Source: a virus
Reading direction: 5' to 3' (one strand)
IMG/VR virus record: IMGVR_UViG_3300029319_000560
Span: 1 to 22,619 of that record
Length of the DNA stretch: 22,619 nucleotides
The translations under genes and the position numbers were made by a program. Positions 989 through 7,834 of the stretch are shown here, in pieces (the stretch's first letter is position 1; each line of letters starts with the position of its first letter). The notes beneath the pieces were generated by a model. That model saw nothing but the letters and a program-made list of their open reading frames with translations. It did no database searches and was not told where the DNA came from.

Positions 989-1229
989 TTGGTTTGTTTT
1001 TCCTCATCTCCGTTACAACACGATTAGCTTCTAATTCAATCAATCTGTTAAGCAATGAGGCCATAAAAATATCTTGGTCAAATTTTTTTCTTACAAGGTG
1101 CGTGCAATATCTTTTTAATCCATCTAAGTCATTTGACTTCATAAGTTCTCTACATTGCATTTCAACTTCTAGTTCCAACTCTGGAGGTGCTGGTTCTATA
1201 TCAATGTTGAGAAATTTAGTAATTTTCAT
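939..1229 (-). CDS. Hypothetical protein, 96 aa, helical
   Basis: The N-terminus (MKITKFLNIDIEPAPPELEL) is followed by acidic and amphipathic helices (EMQCRELMKSNDLDGLKRY, then DIFMASLLNRLIELEANRV) and a basic tail. I prefer this strand to the opposing open frame at 994-1236 because the composition is protein-like and its start overlaps the upstream minus-strand gene as ATGA (1226-1229), a typical phage coupling. From memory it resembles a small conserved cyanophage protein of unknown function. The 3' end overlaps the convergent gene ending at 988. Function unknown. Confidence 0.65.
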   Translation of the reverse strand: MKITKFLNIDIEPAPPELELEVEMQCRELMKSNDLDGLKRYCTHLVRKKFDQDIFMASLLNRLIELEANRVVTEMRKNKPTNPLKKFFRIGQARNQ

Positions 1230-1387
1230 GGTGTAGGAAAGAGTTGTTTTTCAAGAACATCAACTGCTCTATCATCAAGGTTGTTAGATGTCTGTTTACA
1301 AATCGCTCGTAACAGATCAACAATTAATCTTTTACAGGCAGTCGTGGTCAAAAACGTTAATAATATAGTTTTTAAAATTTTATACAT
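1226..1387 (-). CDS. Hypothetical small protein with hydrophobic N-terminus, 53 aa
   Basis: ATG at 1387, stop TGA at 1226-1228 overlapping the next ATG. The product begins MYKILKTILLTFLTTTACKR, a positively charged start plus hydrophobic stretch, and continues with RLIVDLLRAICK and an acidic segment NNLDDRAVDVLEKQLF. The N-terminus could be a signal anchor, and the TTAC motif is only a poor lipobox. The exact start/stop coupling to the 96-residue gene supports its reality. It is divergent from the exported-protein operon that begins at 1455. Function unknown. Confidence 0.6.
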   Translation of the reverse strand: MYKILKTILLTFLTTTACKRLIVDLLRAICKQTSNNLDDRAVDVLEKQLFPTP

Positions 1388-1454: not shown

Positions 1455-1883
1455 ATGGCAGAACAAGAGAAAAAAGAACCTGTATTAACAAAAGATCCAA
1501 TCGAAGATGAAAAGCCTGATTATCAAGAAAAAATTACCTTTTTAATTTCTACTATTGCCCAAGCGTTTATTCTAGCTTGGTGTCTATTAGTGCTTTCTCT
1601 AGGATATATAAAACTACCTAACAGATTATTTGGCTTGGATATTCCAGATCAACCTAGAGTGGATAGTACATTTGCTGCTGGACTTCTCGGTAACATTCTT
1701 GGAGGTTTAGGCATTTCGGTTAACGCAGCACAAGGAGCCAAGAAGAAAAAGAAAGAAGATGGAAATGGTAGTAATAGTAACTCTTCTGGTAGCGTTTCGA
1801 CTATAATAATAAAACAGCCACTTGAGATCGTCACATCTAAACCTGACGTTATCAAAGTTGACCCTAATTCATCCAAAAAATGA
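1455..1883 (+). CDS. Small membrane protein, 142 aa, first gene of exported-protein operon
   Basis: Acidic and charged N-terminus (1-26), a strong transmembrane helix at about 27-51 (ITFLISTIAQAFILAWCLLV...), then a conserved-looking loop (IKLPNRLFGLDIPDQPR). A glycine-rich hydrophobic segment follows at about 70-92 (FAAGLLGNILGGLGISV), then a KKKKK patch and a Ser/Asn-rich linker to a polar C-terminus. Two hydrophobic segments and a basic patch could fit a holin-like or membrane-adaptor protein, but I see no proof. It overlaps the next gene as ATGA (1880-1883). From memory, similar sequences occur as hypothetical proteins in marine cyanophages. No Shine-Dalgarno sequence is visible. Confidence 0.75.
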   Translation: MAEQEKKEPVLTKDPIEDEKPDYQEKITFLISTIAQAFILAWCLLVLSLGYIKLPNRLFGLDIPDQPRVDSTFAAGLLGNILGGLGISVNAAQGAKKKKKEDGNGSNSNSSGSVSTIIIKQPLEIVTSKPDVIKVDPNSSKK

Positions 1884-2407
1884 AAAAATTTCTTCCTTTG
1901 CTTTTACTAGCATTTCCAACAGCTAGTTTTGCAGACGTAACACATTCAATCCAATCGGTAGCCTCAGTATCTACTCTGGGAGCATCAGCCACTAGCGAGC
2001 GTATTGCAGGGGCTATAAGTGTTGCTGGTACGAACGTAACACCAAAAGCAAACACAGTAGCTGGTCAAATAGGTTCTCTTGATTTGTCTGATAATGGTAT
2101 TGCTAGTGGTGTTCCAACTATTGATTACGACACCAGCTTCAATATTGTAAATACAGGTGATGCCTTTTCTGTTAGTGAATCATACATTGCAGCAGACGCA
2201 GTACCTAGCTTACTATCTGCCACAGTAACAAATGGGGCAGTTCCATCACTGCCTCTCCTTGGTAAAAACACAGTAGTATCTGGTGGCGATCCTGGTTCTG
2301 TAGCAATCACAATGGATAGTGGACAAGCACTGACGGTTAACCTAGCTGATATGGGTGCTGGTACTACCGCAACGCTCCAATCAACTATTACTCTTGGCCT
2401 CGATTAA
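1880..2407 (+). CDS. Secreted protein with signal peptide, GDAFS-motif family, 175 aa
   Basis: Classic signal peptide MKKFLPLLLLAFPTASFA with a likely cleavage after SFA at residue 18. The mature protein is rich in Ser, Thr, Ala, Gly and Val and has almost no Lys, Arg or Cys, as expected for an extended beta structure. A motif around residue 93 (TGDAFSVSESYIAAD) is shared with the next gene (EGDAFSLTENFMAPG), so the two appear to be paralogues. The stop and next start share an A (TAATG, 2405-2409). The product is predicted to act in the periplasm or outside the host cell. Role unknown. Homologues in cyanophages are recalled, not verified. Confidence 0.8.
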   Translation: MKKFLPLLLLAFPTASFADVTHSIQSVASVSTLGASATSERIAGAISVAGTNVTPKANTVAGQIGSLDLSDNGIASGVPTIDYDTSFNIVNTGDAFSVSESYIAADAVPSLLSATVTNGAVPSLPLLGKNTVVSGGDPGSVAITMDSGQALTVNLADMGAGTTATLQSTITLGLD

Positions 2408-2838
2408 TGAAATGGTGGCTATGTCTGCTTGTTGTTTTTAGTCCAAATGCCTTTGCTGAAACTCCTAGATTTGGTGCGAACCAGATTCAAAGCAACTCAA
2501 GGAGTATTTCAAAAATAGATGAAGTTATTATTACTGAAAACTATAACTCAGGTTATGCGTACTCAGTTACAGGATCTAATATCAAAATCAAAGATGGTAC
2601 TGTTATCTCTCCTGAAGCCACTTACACAACAAGTCAGAATACAGGTAATGCAGGTGCAGTTAATTTTGAATGGATAACACCAGATCTAACAAGCAAACCA
2701 CAGTGGGAGATCGTTTCAGAAGGAGATGCCTTTTCTCTAACAGAAAACTTCATGGCTCCTGGTTTAGACGCAGTAAGCATAATAAATCGAACACAAACAA
2801 TAGAAACAACACAAACTTCTACAACCTTATTTCAATAG
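2407..2838 (+). CDS. Secreted protein with signal peptide, paralogue of the preceding gene, 143 aa
   Basis: Signal peptide MKWWLCLLVVFSPNAFA with a probable cut after AFA at residue 17. The mature part is Ser/Thr/Asn-rich and beta-like, and carries EGDAFSLTENFMAPG near residue 105, matching the motif in the upstream gene, followed by a Thr-rich end (TIETTQTSTTLFQ). The last part of the reading frame overlaps a different frame that encodes the third exported protein. Start by TAATG coupling. The tight packing of three signal-peptide-like genes suggests their products work together at the envelope. Function unknown. Confidence 0.75.
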   Translation: MKWWLCLLVVFSPNAFAETPRFGANQIQSNSRSISKIDEVIITENYNSGYAYSVTGSNIKIKDGTVISPEATYTTSQNTGNAGAVNFEWITPDLTSKPQWEIVSEGDAFSLTENFMAPGLDAVSIINRTQTIETTQTSTTLFQ

Positions 2839-3440
2839 GACTTTTATTTGCTAGTCCTGTTTATGCCGAAACAACTATTAGTAATCCTCAGTCCAGTACA
2901 CAGTCCACAATAGTAAATCAAGGCTTTCAAAGTATAAGCGGTTCTTTCCCAACTCATAGATATAGCAACGGTATTCAATGCCAAACACCTACTCTCAGTT
3001 TTAATCCGTTTATAACAAAAGGAGAATATTACAACACTCCAAGAAGCACCATACAAAGAACAAATATATATAACCAAGCAAAGGATAGTGAAACTGGACA
3101 GCTAACAAATCCAGGTGAAATACTTTACATAGCAGAACAGGAAAGGTTAGACCAGATAAACCATAACTTTTCTTATGGAGCGACTATCAGTATTCAAGTT
3201 CCATTAGGAAAACGATTTGATGATGAGTGCATAAAAGCAGCCCAAACTTATAGAAAGTATCAGGAGTTTATGCTTGATGCTAAAAAGCTAGAGGTAAATC
3301 TTAATCGCTTAAAAATATGTGCCGAGCAACTAAAACTAGGTGTTAAGTTTGTAGGAGATGATGCTGTTAGTTGTAGGAATGTTGTATTGACCACCGTTCC
3401 AAATCAAGTTATCCCACATACTCATAAATTAAAGCAGTAG
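2670..3440 (+). CDS. Secreted cysteine-containing protein, start uncertain
   Basis: The convincing part begins with a signal-peptide core ISIGLLFASPVYA followed by ETTISNPQ at about base 2829. The only ATG in frame upstream is at 2670, giving 256 residues and an unusually long, basic 66-residue leader that overlaps the previous gene by 169 bases. The alternatives are a GTG at 2703, or a non-standard ATT/ATA start near 2829-2837 overlapping the TAG of the upstream gene. The mature region has four cysteines (GIQCQ, DDECI, KICAE, VSCRN), a pattern NPGEILYIAEQ, a helical stretch and a C-terminal PHTH. It resembles, from memory, a conserved cyanophage protein of unknown function. I am sure of the gene but not of its start. 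Confidence 0.7.
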   Translation: MDNTRSNKQTTVGDRFRRRCLFSNRKLHGSWFRRSKHNKSNTNNRNNTNFYNLISIGLLFASPVYAETTISNPQSSTQSTIVNQGFQSISGSFPTHRYSNGIQCQTPTLSFNPFITKGEYYNTPRSTIQRTNIYNQAKDSETGQLTNPGEILYIAEQERLDQINHNFSYGATISIQVPLGKRFDDECIKAAQTYRKYQEFMLDAKKLEVNLNRLKICAEQLKLGVKFVGDDAVSCRNVVLTTVPNQVIPHTHKLKQ

Positions 3441-3510
3441 GCAAGCACGGTTAAACTTGCCCACCTAGACACCCTATCTGTCGCCATGTTAGATAAGGTT
3501 ATTTTATTCT
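3440..3510. terminator. Convergent intergenic hairpins, possible two-way terminator
   Basis: Two inverted repeats separate the plus-strand and minus-strand operons. GGCAAG (3440-3445) pairs with CTTGCC (3456-3461). ACCCTATCT (3471-3479) pairs with AGATAAGGT (3491-3499) apart from one position, which is a G-U wobble on the minus-strand RNA. The second stem is followed by T-rich TTATTTTATT on the plus strand. The stems are short, so termination strength is uncertain. Confidence 0.4.
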
Positions 3511-4157
3511 ACCTTTTCTTTCTTCTTTGTCAGCTTCTTTATAATATTTTTTACTAAGGGTTTGACAATATTAAGTAGTAATGGAGTAGTGGCAGCAACA
3601 GAAGCAATAACAGCAGTAGATACAACAACACTAGCTGTCGGTATGTACTGGTCAACAAACGGTACTTCTTCCCAGATTGCATCACAGGAACCCTCCAATA
3701 GCCCACGCTCATATTTTACCAGCCTTTCTAATCTAAGCTCATTTCTCCAATCGCCAGATCTATATGGTGCGTTTTTTGGTGGACAAGGTACTAACTCAAT
3801 CTCTTCTTCCTCTTCTTTTTGTCCTAAATTAATATTTACTCCACTTGCTTTTGGTTGAAAATTATATGTACCTTCTGTTTCTATAGTGTCTTGTGCGTCA
3901 TAAACAATAGGTCTAAATGTTTTAGCTTCTGGTTGTACTTTAATTGGTTGTGTACCAGCGATTGCCTGACCATTAGGACAAGTAGCATAAGCTTTTCTAC
4001 CATGAAAAATTATAGTTGGATTTTCTGATAGTTCTATATCTCTATTAGTTAAATCACACGCAGGGTTCTCTCCTACCAATACAGTTTCAGGTACATATGG
4101 CGTTTCTGGTATATTTATTTTTGGTATTTTTATCTCAGGAACTTTAATCGTAGGCAT
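3504..4157 (-). CDS. Membrane-anchored Pro-rich protein, 217 aa
   Basis: The N-terminus is a run of K-I/V-P units (MPTIKVPEIKIPKINIPETP), suggesting an extended polyproline-like arm. A middle domain follows with paired cysteines (PACDLTNRD, YATCPNGQAIAG), then an acidic EEEEE stretch, CPPKNAPYRSGDWRNE, and a hydrophobic segment near the C-terminus (ASVVVSTAVIASVAATTPLLL) before a very basic tail (KNIIKKLTKKKEKVE). The tail anchor suggests a membrane protein with most of its mass on one side. An AAGAAAAGAG sequence just before the ATG is a plausible ribosome binding site. It overlaps the preceding zinc-ribbon gene by 14 bases. From memory, cyanophage homologues exist. Function unknown. Confidence 0.75.
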   Translation of the reverse strand: MPTIKVPEIKIPKINIPETPYVPETVLVGENPACDLTNRDIELSENPTIIFHGRKAYATCPNGQAIAGTQPIKVQPEAKTFRPIVYDAQDTIETEGTYNFQPKASGVNINLGQKEEEEEIELVPCPPKNAPYRSGDWRNELRLERLVKYERGLLEGSCDAIWEEVPFVDQYIPTASVVVSTAVIASVAATTPLLLNIVKPLVKNIIKKLTKKKEKVE

Positions 4158-4305
4158 CTCTTTTCTTCAATATTTCTACTTCAGAAAAGCATTTAGGACA
4201 GGATAAATTAGTCATCACTGAAAACTCAGGATAGCCATTCATTCCATCTTCAATATCAATATCGCCACCTATTATCAATTCTGTATCGCACCAATAACAT
4301 TTCAT
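4144..4305 (-). CDS. Small zinc-ribbon-like protein, 53 aa
   Basis: ATG at 4305, stop TAA at 4144-4146. It starts MKCYWCDTELIIGGD and ends with MTNLSCPKCFSEVEILKK, so CxxC and CPxC pairs frame an acidic middle: a four-cysteine zinc-ribbon arrangement (Cys3, Cys6, Cys36, Cys39). It starts two bases after the stop of the upstream 180-residue gene and overlaps the downstream gene by 14 bases, as expected for an operon. Zinc binding is inferred from the cysteines, and the target is unknown. Confidence 0.75.
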   Translation of the reverse strand: MKCYWCDTELIIGGDIDIEDGMNGYPEFSVMTNLSCPKCFSEVEILKKRDAYD

Positions 4306-4307
4306 AA

Positions 4308-4850
4308 TTAACAGTCGTTAAAGTCAGAGGCCATATTACCTCCTATCTTACCGCCTTCTCTCCTTGCTGTGTTGGTTGCAAATCCAGATAAGAACCAGCC
4401 AACTATAGGAACATTAGCTAATGAACTAGATAAACCTGTTCCAGTAGCTACTGACGTTCCAATAAGTTGTCCTGTAGATTCACCTTTTGCTCTTTCTTTT
4501 ATGCAAGCTATTTGCTTTGCTGTAAGCTCACCACTATTTATAACAGCTACATCCTTTTCTCCAGCTACTTTTTGTGTCTCTTTTGTAGATAAAGCCTTAC
4601 TAGCACCTAAAAATCCTGCTGGTTTCCTTGTATTTTCTATAGAAGCGATAATCCTTGGGTCGTGCATCTTATGTCTTATTCTATAACTATCTTTATCAGC
4701 TTCAATTTCATAAGTAGAATATTTACTAACAGGTAAATCAAACATTGGTAAATTCGATTTTTTACTTAAAAGACTGATTGTATAAAAGTTGGAAGCAACA
4801 AAGACAGTTCCAAGTCCTATTGATATACCTTTAATAATATTGCTATTCAT
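4308..4850 (-). CDS. Membrane-anchored protein, 180 aa
   Basis: The N-terminal hydrophobic segment (IIKGISIGLGTVFVASNFYTI, about residues 5-25) is a signal anchor. A soluble middle follows (TYEIEADKDSYRIRHKMHDP), then a C-terminal glycine-rich region with a hydrophobic patch (NVPIVGWFLSGFATN, then GGKIGGNMASDFNDC) that ends in cysteine. A second cysteine occurs in KQIACIKERA. The glycine-zipper look suggests membrane insertion or oligomerisation, but this is inference. It starts in an ATGA overlap with the upstream 40-residue gene. Cyanophage homologues are recalled from memory. Function unknown. Confidence 0.75.
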   Translation of the reverse strand: MNSNIIKGISIGLGTVFVASNFYTISLLSKKSNLPMFDLPVSKYSTYEIEADKDSYRIRHKMHDPRIIASIENTRKPAGFLGASKALSTKETQKVAGEKDVAVINSGELTAKQIACIKERAKGESTGQLIGTSVATGTGLSSSLANVPIVGWFLSGFATNTARREGGKIGGNMASDFNDC

Positions 4851-4969
4851 CTTTTTTTCTCCACTTTTTCATATACAAAATCATGTTGAAGTCCAAACCA
4901 ATTAATCTTTTCTAAAGAACCATGTACTTTTTTTGGATTGTTTTGATAAGCAATAGCTTTCATTTTCAT
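4847..4969 (-). CDS. Hypothetical peptide, 40 aa
   Basis: ATG at 4969, with a second ATG at 4963. The product MKMKAIAYQNNPKKVHGSLE... ends EKVEKKR and its TGA overlaps the ATG of the next gene (4847-4850). The exact coupling and position between two membrane-protein genes make it credible despite its size. It contains an aromatic core (INWFGLQHDFVYE) and no recognised motif. Confidence 0.55.
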   Translation of the reverse strand: MKMKAIAYQNNPKKVHGSLEKINWFGLQHDFVYEKVEKKR

Positions 4970-4986
4970 AATGATTTGATGTGACT

Positions 4987-5217
4987 TTAGAGTTTAGGGA
5001 GAGATTTAGTAGGTATAGATGGTCCTGTTACGTCAGGTAGACCTTTATCTAATACTTTCGGCATCAGTCCAGATACGTTACCCATTATCTCTTTCATGAC
5101 TTGGTTTTTAAAATTCTCAGATGTTAAATACTTGTAACCGAAGTACGCTCCACCACTCATGGAAGCTACCATTACAAATGAAACAATACTCAGAATTTGA
5201 CAGATGCGGTTTAGCAT
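4987..5217 (-). CDS. Small membrane protein, 76 aa
   Basis: One transmembrane helix at about residues 8-28 (ILSIVSFVMVASMSGGAYFGY) is followed by an amphipathic stretch (SENFKNQVMKEIMGNVSGLM) and a Pro/Ser/Lys-rich tail (GPSIPTKSLPKL). It is probably a single-pass envelope protein. No ribosome binding site is seen. Its start overlaps, head to head, a possible short plus-strand membrane peptide. It lies in the same minus-strand set as the 180- and 217-residue membrane proteins. From memory, similar proteins occur in cyanophages. Function unknown. Confidence 0.65.
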   Translation of the reverse strand: MLNRICQILSIVSFVMVASMSGGAYFGYKYLTSENFKNQVMKEIMGNVSGLMPKVLDKGLPDVTGPSIPTKSLPKL

Positions 5218-5660: not shown

Positions 5661-7007
5661 TTATGCAGCTTCTAAGATTTGTATTCTTGATTCGAGTGCA
5701 GTATTTTTTGTTGATAACTCTTGTATTGCTTTTACTAAAACAGGAATAAGTTTGCCTTGTTTAACTTCTAGCTGATCTGGGTTTGAATCATATACTAAAT
5801 CAAGATATTCTGCACCTGTTTGTACTTCTTGTAATTCTTGTGCAATAAAACCAGCCCTTACTGTACCATCTTTATGTGGTATGCCTTCTCTTGTTTGCCA
5901 TTTAAATTGGCGAGGTTTAAGGGTATTAACAAAATCTAATCCTACAGGTAAATCAACTATATCCGTTTTATCTCTTCTGTCTGATAAAGAACTTATTGAA
6001 GTATCAGCACAACGTAAGTTAGTAATACTGCTACTACCTAAAGTAATTTCATAATCTACAGTTGCACTACTAGCTGATGCAAAAGCACCTAAAACCATAT
6101 TATATTTTCCTGTAGTAATTGCTGATCCAGCGCCATGTCCAACACAAGTGTTCATAGATCCATCAAAAGTACCAAAAGTTCCAGTTATTTCACCACCAGC
6201 AGCCCTACCTACACAAACATTTGATTGACCAGCAGTACAAGCATCTAAAGCTAAACATCCCACAGCAACATTATTTGCTCCTGTAGTATTAGCTGTGCCA
6301 GCAAGGCGACCTACAAAAACATTCTCACCTCCTGTAGTAGTAGCTTTACCTGCTTGATACCCAACAAATGTATTCTCAACACCTGTAGTATTACCTGCAC
6401 CTGCTTCATAGCCTATAAAAGTTAAACCATCTACTCCTGCTACAGTTTTCCCTGCGTCATAACCAATCATGACGGAATTACTACCAGTATGAGCATAACC
6501 AGCCAACCAGCCAATATAAACACTACCTTGACTACTGGTTAATGAATAGCCAGCTTTTACTCCAAGAGCAACATTTTTACTGCTACTGGTTGCACTGTAT
6601 AGACTCTGATAACCTATAGCAACATTATTCCATCCATTACCAGTTTTTAATGCCTCAGAACCAACACTGGTATTAAAATTACCAGTTGTTATAGCAGTAC
6701 CAGCGTCATATCCAAAAAGAGTATTATTATTTGGATTTGTACCATCAAAGCTATCGCCAGCTTGAGTTCCTCCTACGGTGTTAAATTGTGCGTCTGAACT
6801 TACACCAGAAGAAAGTCCTGTCAAAGCAGATCCATCACCAGAAAATGATGTAGCAGCACACGCTCCAGTAATAGTTACACCAGTTGATGTAGTTGCCAGC
6901 TTTGCAGATCCACTATGTTTTAAGGTGACAGAAGAATCAGACGCAAGTGATATTGCATCGTCCGTACTTTGTCTAGATTGTATATCATCTACTTTTAGTG
7001 TTGACAT
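5661..7007 (-). CDS. Tail fibre/adhesin with YadA-like repeats and C-terminal S74 self-cleaving chaperone
   Basis: 448 residues. Residues 1-65 are an attachment module shared with the next two fibre genes (MSTLKVDDIQS, then SVTLKHSGSAKLATTSTGV). About 95-310 is a series of roughly 20-25-residue units of the type NVAIGYQSL/NTFVGYQAG, typical of a left-handed beta-roll in trimeric adhesin heads. From about 343 begins an S74 peptidase intramolecular chaperone: SLSDRRDK supplies the Ser-Asp site, then GFIAQELQEV and a C-terminal coiled coil (LVKAIQELSTKN...). S74 domains trimerise a fibre and cut themselves off. This gene ends the fibre run. Host receptor binding is the likely role. Confidence 0.85.
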   Translation of the reverse strand: MSTLKVDDIQSRQSTDDAISLASDSSVTLKHSGSAKLATTSTGVTITGACAATSFSGDGSALTGLSSGVSSDAQFNTVGGTQAGDSFDGTNPNNNTLFGYDAGTAITTGNFNTSVGSEALKTGNGWNNVAIGYQSLYSATSSSKNVALGVKAGYSLTSSQGSVYIGWLAGYAHTGSNSVMIGYDAGKTVAGVDGLTFIGYEAGAGNTTGVENTFVGYQAGKATTTGGENVFVGRLAGTANTTGANNVAVGCLALDACTAGQSNVCVGRAAGGEITGTFGTFDGSMNTCVGHGAGSAITTGKYNMVLGAFASASSATVDYEITLGSSSITNLRCADTSISSLSDRRDKTDIVDLPVGLDFVNTLKPRQFKWQTREGIPHKDGTVRAGFIAQELQEVQTGAEYLDLVYDSNPDQLEVKQGKLIPVLVKAIQELSTKNTALESRIQILEAA

Positions 7008-7063: not shown

Positions 7064-7834
7064 CTAGGTTGCAACAAGTCTAAAGCCACCAAACCAAGTA
7101 TATTTTGTTTCTGTTTCTTGCGATGAACCTTCATCATGGTATGCTTGCAAACGTACAGTATCGCCTACTGCTAAAGTAAGCACTTTTGAAATTTGTACCA
7201 TAAAAATATGATTATTACCAGTATTCCGTGCTATATACTCTGAATAATAAGTTGGATTAGTATTATTGTGTGCTACTCCAAGGCGTATAAGATCATTTTC
7301 CTGTATATCATCTATTCCAACAGAGCCAAAAACATAATAAATACCAGCCTGACCAGATTGTGCTGTGAAAAGACCTGTTGATTCATCCCATCCACTACTG
7401 TTACCGCTTGGGTTTACAGGACTTGTAGCAAAATTAGTAAGAGAAGTCCATGATGATGAGTATATGGTGGTAACCGCATCTTGTTCTCCGTACCAGCAAG
7501 GAGGTGCTGCACCCCCACCAACACCAGTTAAATTAGAACCATCAATAGCTGGTAAAGCACCTGTTAAATTTGCTGCTGGTAGAGAAGTAAGATTTGCTCC
7601 ACTAATCGCCGGTAATGTACCAGTAAGATTAGCTGCTGGCAAAGCTGTAAGGCTTGCTGCTGATCCTGAAAACTCTGTAGCTGTGCAAGTTCCTGTAACG
7701 CTTACACCAGTTGATGTAGTTGCCAGCTTTGCAGAACCGCTATGTTTAAGACTAACACTTGAATCTGATGCAATAGATACTGCATTATTAGAGTTAGATG
7801 GATGTTGTATTTCTTCGACTTTTAGTGTTGACAT
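7064..7834 (-). CDS. Tail fibre with shared N-terminal module and C1q-like head, 256 aa
   Basis: The N-terminal 40 residues closely match the 448-residue fibre (STLKVEEIQ, SVSLKHSGSAKLATTSTGV). A linker of repeated AANLTG/LPAI(S/D)G units follows. The C-terminal 140 residues form a jelly-roll resembling C1q/TNF-like heads (GIYYVFGSVGIDDIQENDLI, VLTLAVGDTVRLQAYHDEG, YTWFGGFRLVAT). Such heads trimerise and bind receptors. Two glycines and aromatic patches at the expected strand ends support this, though the fold is by eye. A 35-base gap with a TAAAAT box (7864-7859) lies upstream. Confidence 0.8.
   Translation of the reverse strand: MSTLKVEEIQHPSNSNNAVSIASDSSVSLKHSGSAKLATTSTGVSVTGTCTATEFSGSAASLTALPAANLTGTLPAISGANLTSLPAANLTGALPAIDGSNLTGVGGGAAPPCWYGEQDAVTTIYSSSWTSLTNFATSPVNPSGNSSGWDESTGLFTAQSGQAGIYYVFGSVGIDDIQENDLIRLGVAHNNTNPTYYSEYIARNTGNNHIFMVQISKVLTLAVGDTVRLQAYHDEGSSQETETKYTWFGGFRLVAT

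Follow-up and report, generated by a model that had tools for sequence, protein, structure and literature searches.

A conserved module of exported and membrane proteins in marine cyanophages is a candidate for late host lysis or egress

We report that the window, a viral contig of 22,619 bases, carries the siphovirus version of a known cyanophage gene cluster. Its seven genes, g1 to g7, very probably constitute a conserved module of exported and membrane proteins, which marine cyanophages of each of the three tailed morphotypes carry either complete or partially. We think it likely that it acts on the host envelope late in infection and outside the virion. Given its export signals, its probably late expression, its apparent absence from virions and its sharing between morphotypes, lysis or egress is the best fit among known phage functions, and we assign a probability of roughly 0.45 to the reading that this is a late lysis/egress module that disrupts the outer membrane. 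Among the ocean's main primary producers, a large share falls victim to marine cyanophages; we regard the module as a good candidate for the means by which these phages break out of their host cells.

Gene content and export signals

The first-pass annotation had described four tightly packed plus-strand genes at 1455-3440, a membrane protein followed by three exported proteins, and the open reading frames and their junctions bear this out. The membrane protein g1 (1455-1883, 142 aa; DUF6450/phrog_2714, Syn9 gp161, T4-GC 218) shares an ATGA with g2 (1880-2407, 175 aa, Sec-exported; phrog_564, Syn9 gp167, T4-GC 237), which in turn shares a TAATG with g3 (2407-2838, 143 aa, Sec-exported; DUF6322/phrog_650, Syn9 gp166, T4-GC 236). 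The supposed overlapping end between g3 and the exported g4 (2670-3440, 256 aa; phrog_848, Syn9 gp165, T4-GC 235) is in fact an out-of-frame dual-coding overlap of 169 nt. In Pfam scans g1 scored 26.3 bits against a DUF6450 cut-off of 25 and g3 scored 84 bits against a DUF6322 cut-off of 30.6; g2, a distant paralogue of g3, stayed below the latter cut-off at 17.3 bits. A hydrophobicity scan of g1 places one hydrophobic segment at about residues 30-50 and a second, weaker one elsewhere, with a basic C-terminal half; one such segment is found in 130 and two in 42 of 190 homologues. Judged by topology only, g1 is putatively holin-like, holins being small proteins of 1-3 transmembrane segments which make the inner membrane permeable.

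The signal-peptide cores noticed at first reading, ending SFA, AFA or VYA before an acidic residue, are all there: TASFA before D in g2, PNAFA before E in g3 and SPVYA before E in g4, the last of these behind a basic extension of about 50 residues. A simple Sec-signal rule was satisfied by 196 of 207 g2 and 204 of 216 g3 homologues, compared with 43 of 218 control ORFs, an excess which indicates that the g2 and g3 signals are not chance. The same rule was satisfied by 4 of 222 g4 homologues, as it reads the first residues only and the g4 core lies at about residues 50-66. Four near-conserved cysteines mark the mature part of g4. A lipobox was found in none of 207 g2, in 1 of 216 g3 and in 11 of 222 g4 homologues, and hence there is no classical o-spanin among g2-g4.

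The cassette of three genes and a membrane protein was real as far as it went, and its extent was underestimated, for the module comprises seven genes with a minus-strand arm at 3504-5217. Convergent to g4 lies g5 (3504-4157; phrog_570, Syn9 gp164, T4-GC 234), with a C-terminal hydrophobic segment; it is followed by g6 (4308-4850; phrog_605, Syn9 gp163, T4-GC 219), which has an N-terminal hydrophobic segment and a Gly-rich C-terminal hydrophobic stretch, and by the small g7 (4987-5217; phrog_568, Syn9 gp162, T4-GC 414), with one N-terminal hydrophobic segment. A small minus-strand ORF of 53 aa (4144-4305) sits between g5 and g6. Profiles seeded with window and Syn9 sequences matched all seven window genes, which correspond to Syn9 gp161-gp167 and to T4-GC 218, 414, 219, 234, 235, 236 and 237 of S-SM1.

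The module is therefore not undescribed, as had been suggested: Sullivan et al. 2010 (PMC3037559) had already reported the cluster as conserved among T4-like cyanophages and of unknown function. They found T4-GC 218/219/234/235/237, often together with a "plasmid stability" gene, clustered in all studied cyanophages except S-PM2. They described the members as hypothetical proteins, grouped presumably for functional reasons. "Plasmid stability" is the database name of g7; as a function we reject it, since it is without Pfam support. We note that PMC9602691 builds a function on this name for g7/gp162 (window 4987-5217; gp162 25591-25854).

The remainder of the window holds a lambda-type tail set (tape measure, gpJ-like protein, fibres) on the strand opposite the cassette. 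These tail genes are syntenic with those of the Prochlorococcus siphovirus MED4-184, so the host of the window phage is probably a marine picocyanobacterium. The module adjoins the tail-fibre genes, and the minus-strand tail-fibre region (5661-7007 and 7064-7834) includes a Peptidase_S74 intramolecular chaperone and a C1q-like domain. On the other side lies a possible accessory gene (1226-1387, minus strand) for a 53-aa protein of phrog_2738, relatives of which adjoin the module in MED4-184 and P-SSP7 and stand beside the terminase small subunit in Syn5, which has no module. Further upstream, at 60-250, several copies of TGTCCCAT/ATGGGACA occur within about 200 bases and are possibly operator-like repeats.

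Distribution and gene order

That related proteins recur in marine cyanophages with contractile tails had been stated in the first-pass annotation, and it proved correct, with the gene order also shared: tblastn detected g2, g3 and g4 in 85, 396 and 411 phage records respectively, all of them cyanophage or marine-virus entries. With a podovirus-type g4 query and a looser cut-off the count was 444 records. Within IMG/VR, relatives numbered 116 and 114 in the first two scans and at least 584 in a scan with a T4-like g4 profile. The order g1-g2-g3-g4 is kept in 61 of 61 siphovirus-type contigs, and the exported g2-g3-g4 arm is convergent with g5 in all 61 of these as well as in 37 of 37 T4-like loci. 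Iterated profiles found g1, g3, g4 and weaker g5 matches in the T7-like P-SSP7, P-SSP10 and S-RIP1, where the module genes lie between the tail-fibre genes and the terminase. The earlier suggestion of a cassette common to several morphotypes is thus upheld, with myovirus, siphovirus and podovirus carriers all represented.

The module is replaceable rather than universal, as the cyanophages that lack it (S-PM2, Syn5, P60, P-SS2) indicate. The genes g1, g3 and g4 are jointly absent from S-PM2, P-SS2, S-CBS1, S-CBS2, S-CBS3, P60 and Syn5, and across the eight records tested the three occurred, or were missing, as a group; this joint absence points to a functional link among them. A bacterial origin was considered and rejected, a scan of bacterial genomes having yielded eight loci in MAGs, a single-cell genome or large phage-like contigs. 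These module-bearing contigs are assigned to Nonlabens, Formosa, Lewinella, a euryarchaeon and other genomes, and are probably mis-binned or co-assembled phage DNA.

The g3/g4 overlap

Selection keeps the dual-coding overlap of g3 and g4 (2670-2838, plus strand, g4 in the -1 frame relative to g3) open. At synonymous third positions of g3 where a T would make a stop in the g4 frame, T was found at 0 of 1203 sites within the overlap and at 976 of 2066 upstream of it, these counts coming from sequences related by descent and not from independent events, with the pattern holding in separate phage lineages. T occupies 33-39% of neutral third-base sites in the overlap and 34-56% of both kinds of site upstream, and the third frame contains stops in 140 of 140 sequences.

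In siphovirus-type phages the g4 ATG precedes the g3 stop by 169 or 172 nt; in T4-like phages the distance is usually 166 nt. In 140 of 141 sequences no other start codon lies near enough for the g4 signal core. The A of this ATG stands at the third base before an invariant TGG, and 80 of 80 and 71 of 72 sequences retain it, where codon usage would predict 61 and 30. By our reading of the sequences, podoviruses retain the overlap with the g4 start at different Trp-linked sites; in the podovirus-like S37-C6, as in MED4-184, the overlap is nearly lost and the start adjoins the signal.

Three other explanations of the open frame were rejected. Expression of g4 by frameshifting from g3 fits less well than a start, as the open frame usually begins just before the fixed and protected ATG. 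With a non-canonical g4 start at the ATA over the g3 stop, nothing would require the upstream frame to lack stops. If the g4 extension were constrained as protein, synonymous change in g3 should be lowered, and over the overlap as a whole it is not (ratio 1.18, falling around the g4 ATG); the extension is hence held open without being conserved in sequence.

The overlap appears in some GenBank annotations, such as that of Syn9, and we found no published discussion of it or of its selection. Elsewhere g3 is unannotated (P-SSP10, 43241-43636) or the annotated g4 start is too late (S-RIP1, 5806-6444; P-SSP7, 38615-39235), apparently because gene callers avoid the overlap, which suggests that the annotated start sites in P-SSP7 and S-RIP1 are wrong. 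We consider the g3/g4 overlap a clear natural example of dual coding that has been retained in unrelated types of phage.

Timing of expression

The cyanomyovirus late promoter has been described as NATAAATA (PMC2984593). Among distinct T4-like loci, [AC]TAAATA occurs at -50 to -10 before g2 in 52 of 59 and before g1 in 47 of 53, these two genes heading the two arms of the module in such loci; the internal genes account for 0-2 cases, and random control windows for 66 of 6000 (about 1%). Among the genes checked in Syn9 and S-SM1, the motif was found ahead of about half of the late structural ones and ahead of 1 of 21 regarded as early; neither phage shows a clear late motif in front of g2, although g1 of S-SM1 is preceded by one. 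In siphovirus-type phages the region upstream of g2 showed no such motif, and late timing in the window phage would be an extrapolation from the T4-like relatives. From these motifs, the module is probably made late in infection. We found no published report of T4-type late promoters on both arms.

Virion status and predicted structure

In the S-SM1 record the label "virion structural protein" is given to some proteins that have no T4 name; T4-GC969, GC344 and GC112 carry it, and the module genes are labelled "hypothetical protein". T4-GC969 has been published as detected in virions. The module genes of S-TIM5 are likewise without a virion label. On the strength of these annotations the module proteins apparently lie outside the virus particle, and the first-pass annotation's idea of selection on a function outside the virion is favoured by export together with the missing virion label in S-SM1.

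It is highly improbable that the module encodes virion components with unusual export-like leaders, a reading which would suit the late promoters and the adjoining tail-fibre genes of the window phage and which is opposed by Sec signals with AxA sites, which the capsid or tail proteins of a tailed phage would not be expected to carry, by the lack of a virion label in S-SM1 and S-TIM5, and by homologues across unrelated virion types.

AlphaFold2 gave g3 a pLDDT of 72.5 and a pTM of 0.43, with long strands at residues 9-30 (N-terminal) and 102-124 (C-terminal), and g4 a pLDDT of 66 and a pTM of 0.31, with long strands at 48-68 and 85-106 and a helix at 115-156. These models are too weak for fold assignment: Foldseek returned no significant PDB match for either, and against BFVD mainly the same family and T7-like cyanophage gp165. 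A PDB sequence search with the g3 and g4 alignments gave no match. The mechanism proposed below is not based on the models.

Function

We suggest that the module would work as follows. g1, with g7, would supply inner-membrane parts that are holin-like or serve as anchors; g2, g3 and g4, Sec-exported and predicted to be beta-rich, would come together in the periplasm or at the outer membrane and contribute to breaching the latter, which is the job of a spanin done without a lipoprotein; and g5 and g6 may be membrane-anchored partners. Localisation, assembly and outer-membrane disruption are all inferred.

In phage T7, the holin and spanins are located between the tail-fibre and terminase genes. 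The podovirus module occupies the same site, which counts in favour of lysis. An overlapping, out-of-frame pair of exported genes is moreover the commonest layout of two-component spanins (PMC6139136). In that survey, 20 phages with Prochlorococcus or Synechococcus as isolation host had no spanins that could be recognised, among its spanin-less phages being P-SSP7, P-SSM2, S-SM1, Syn9 and many T4-like cyanophages; it remarked that the outer membrane may be fragile. We confirmed the module in P-SSP7, P-SSM2, S-SM1, S-RSM4 and Syn9, among others. The correlation is incomplete, however, as the spanin-less list also includes several cyanophages without the module. Against lysis stand the lipobox counts given above, the existence of cyanophages without the module, the missing clear late motif before g2 in Syn9, S-SM1 and the siphovirus type, the lack of a significant structural match and the position of the module among replication genes in T4-like phages, and no endolysin was found in or adjoining the module.

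Superinfection exclusion or surface remodelling had been put forward alongside lysis in the first-pass annotation; here g2-g4 would build a structure, periplasmic or on the outer surface, that blocks the adsorption or DNA entry of other phages. Export, the lack of a virion label and occurrence in same-host phages across morphotypes would all suit it, and there is a published proposal of LPS-type exclusion by other genes of cyanophages (PMC2984593). We nonetheless judge it unlikely, because its T4-like carriers have late rather than early promoters, seven conserved parts are a large apparatus for the purpose, and the terminase/fibre position in podoviruses fits lysis at least equally well. Among the suggested functions, the late promoters of the T4-like relatives speak for lysis or egress and against early exclusion.

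We also think it unlikely that the module is a channel, or a secretion or uptake device, in which a g4 oligomer in the outer membrane, anchored by the other parts, would change transport in the infected cell. The g4 model is a long predicted beta hairpin with a helix, its weak top Foldseek matches, none significant, include the oligomeric hairpin pores aerolysin and lysenin, and genes for CsgGF pores are known from other marine phages (PMC9004378); yet the model is of low confidence and there is no family match to known pores. An extracellular fibre or adhesive coat polymerised outside the cell from g2 and g3, small Ser/Thr-rich beta proteins, seems very unlikely: the two are paralogous, exported and beta-rich, but they have no sequence match to known pilin, curli or appendage families, and their structure matches are not significant.

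With seven named genes, late promoters, a lysis-like position and overlap, and carriers of small genome such as P-SSP7, the lysis question is directly testable.

Comparison with known systems

The Syn9 gp161-gp167 cluster resembles the window locus in having homologues of all seven genes, an exported g2-g3-g4 unit with g5 convergent to it, and the g3/g4 overlap. It differs in that g1 heads the g2-g3-g4 arm in the window and belongs to the other arm in the T4-like type, and in that the T4-like module lies among replication genes and the window module beside tail-fibre genes. MED4-184 shares the tail synteny and has g1-g2-g3-g4 with convergent g5 and g7, whereas its g3/g4 overlap is nearly lost, its g4 has its own TTG start beside the signal, and no g6 was found.

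The viral CsgGF curli pore of pelagimyophages and Melnitz (PMC9004378) also consists of exported marine-phage proteins, with a suggested role in lysis timing; it is a different gene set, and Pfam scans of the window and Syn9 module proteins gave no match to CsgG or CsgF.

The two-component spanins (lambda Rz/Rz1, T7 18.5/18.7), whose paired genes may be embedded, overlapped or separated, share with the module an out-of-frame overlapping pair of envelope-directed genes, lateness, the terminase/fibre region in podoviruses and, as proposed here, the task of breaching the outer membrane. No sequence similarity of the module to Rz/Rz1-type spanins was found. An i-spanin has an N-terminal transmembrane segment and a periplasmic coiled coil; in g4 a hydrophobic segment with a cleavage-like AxA follows the first 50 or so residues, and a low-confidence model shows a helix at 115-156. 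The module further differs from spanins in having no lipoprotein, in being predicted beta-rich rather than coiled-coil, and in its extra conserved partners. We advance, as a tentative and somewhat doubtful generalisation, that most marine picocyanophages, whatever their tail type, may breach the outer membrane by means of shared, late, Sec-exported, beta-rich and non-lipoprotein g2-g4 proteins and their membrane partners, a lysis system unrelated to Rz/Rz1 in which one signal sequence is dual-coded inside a partner gene.
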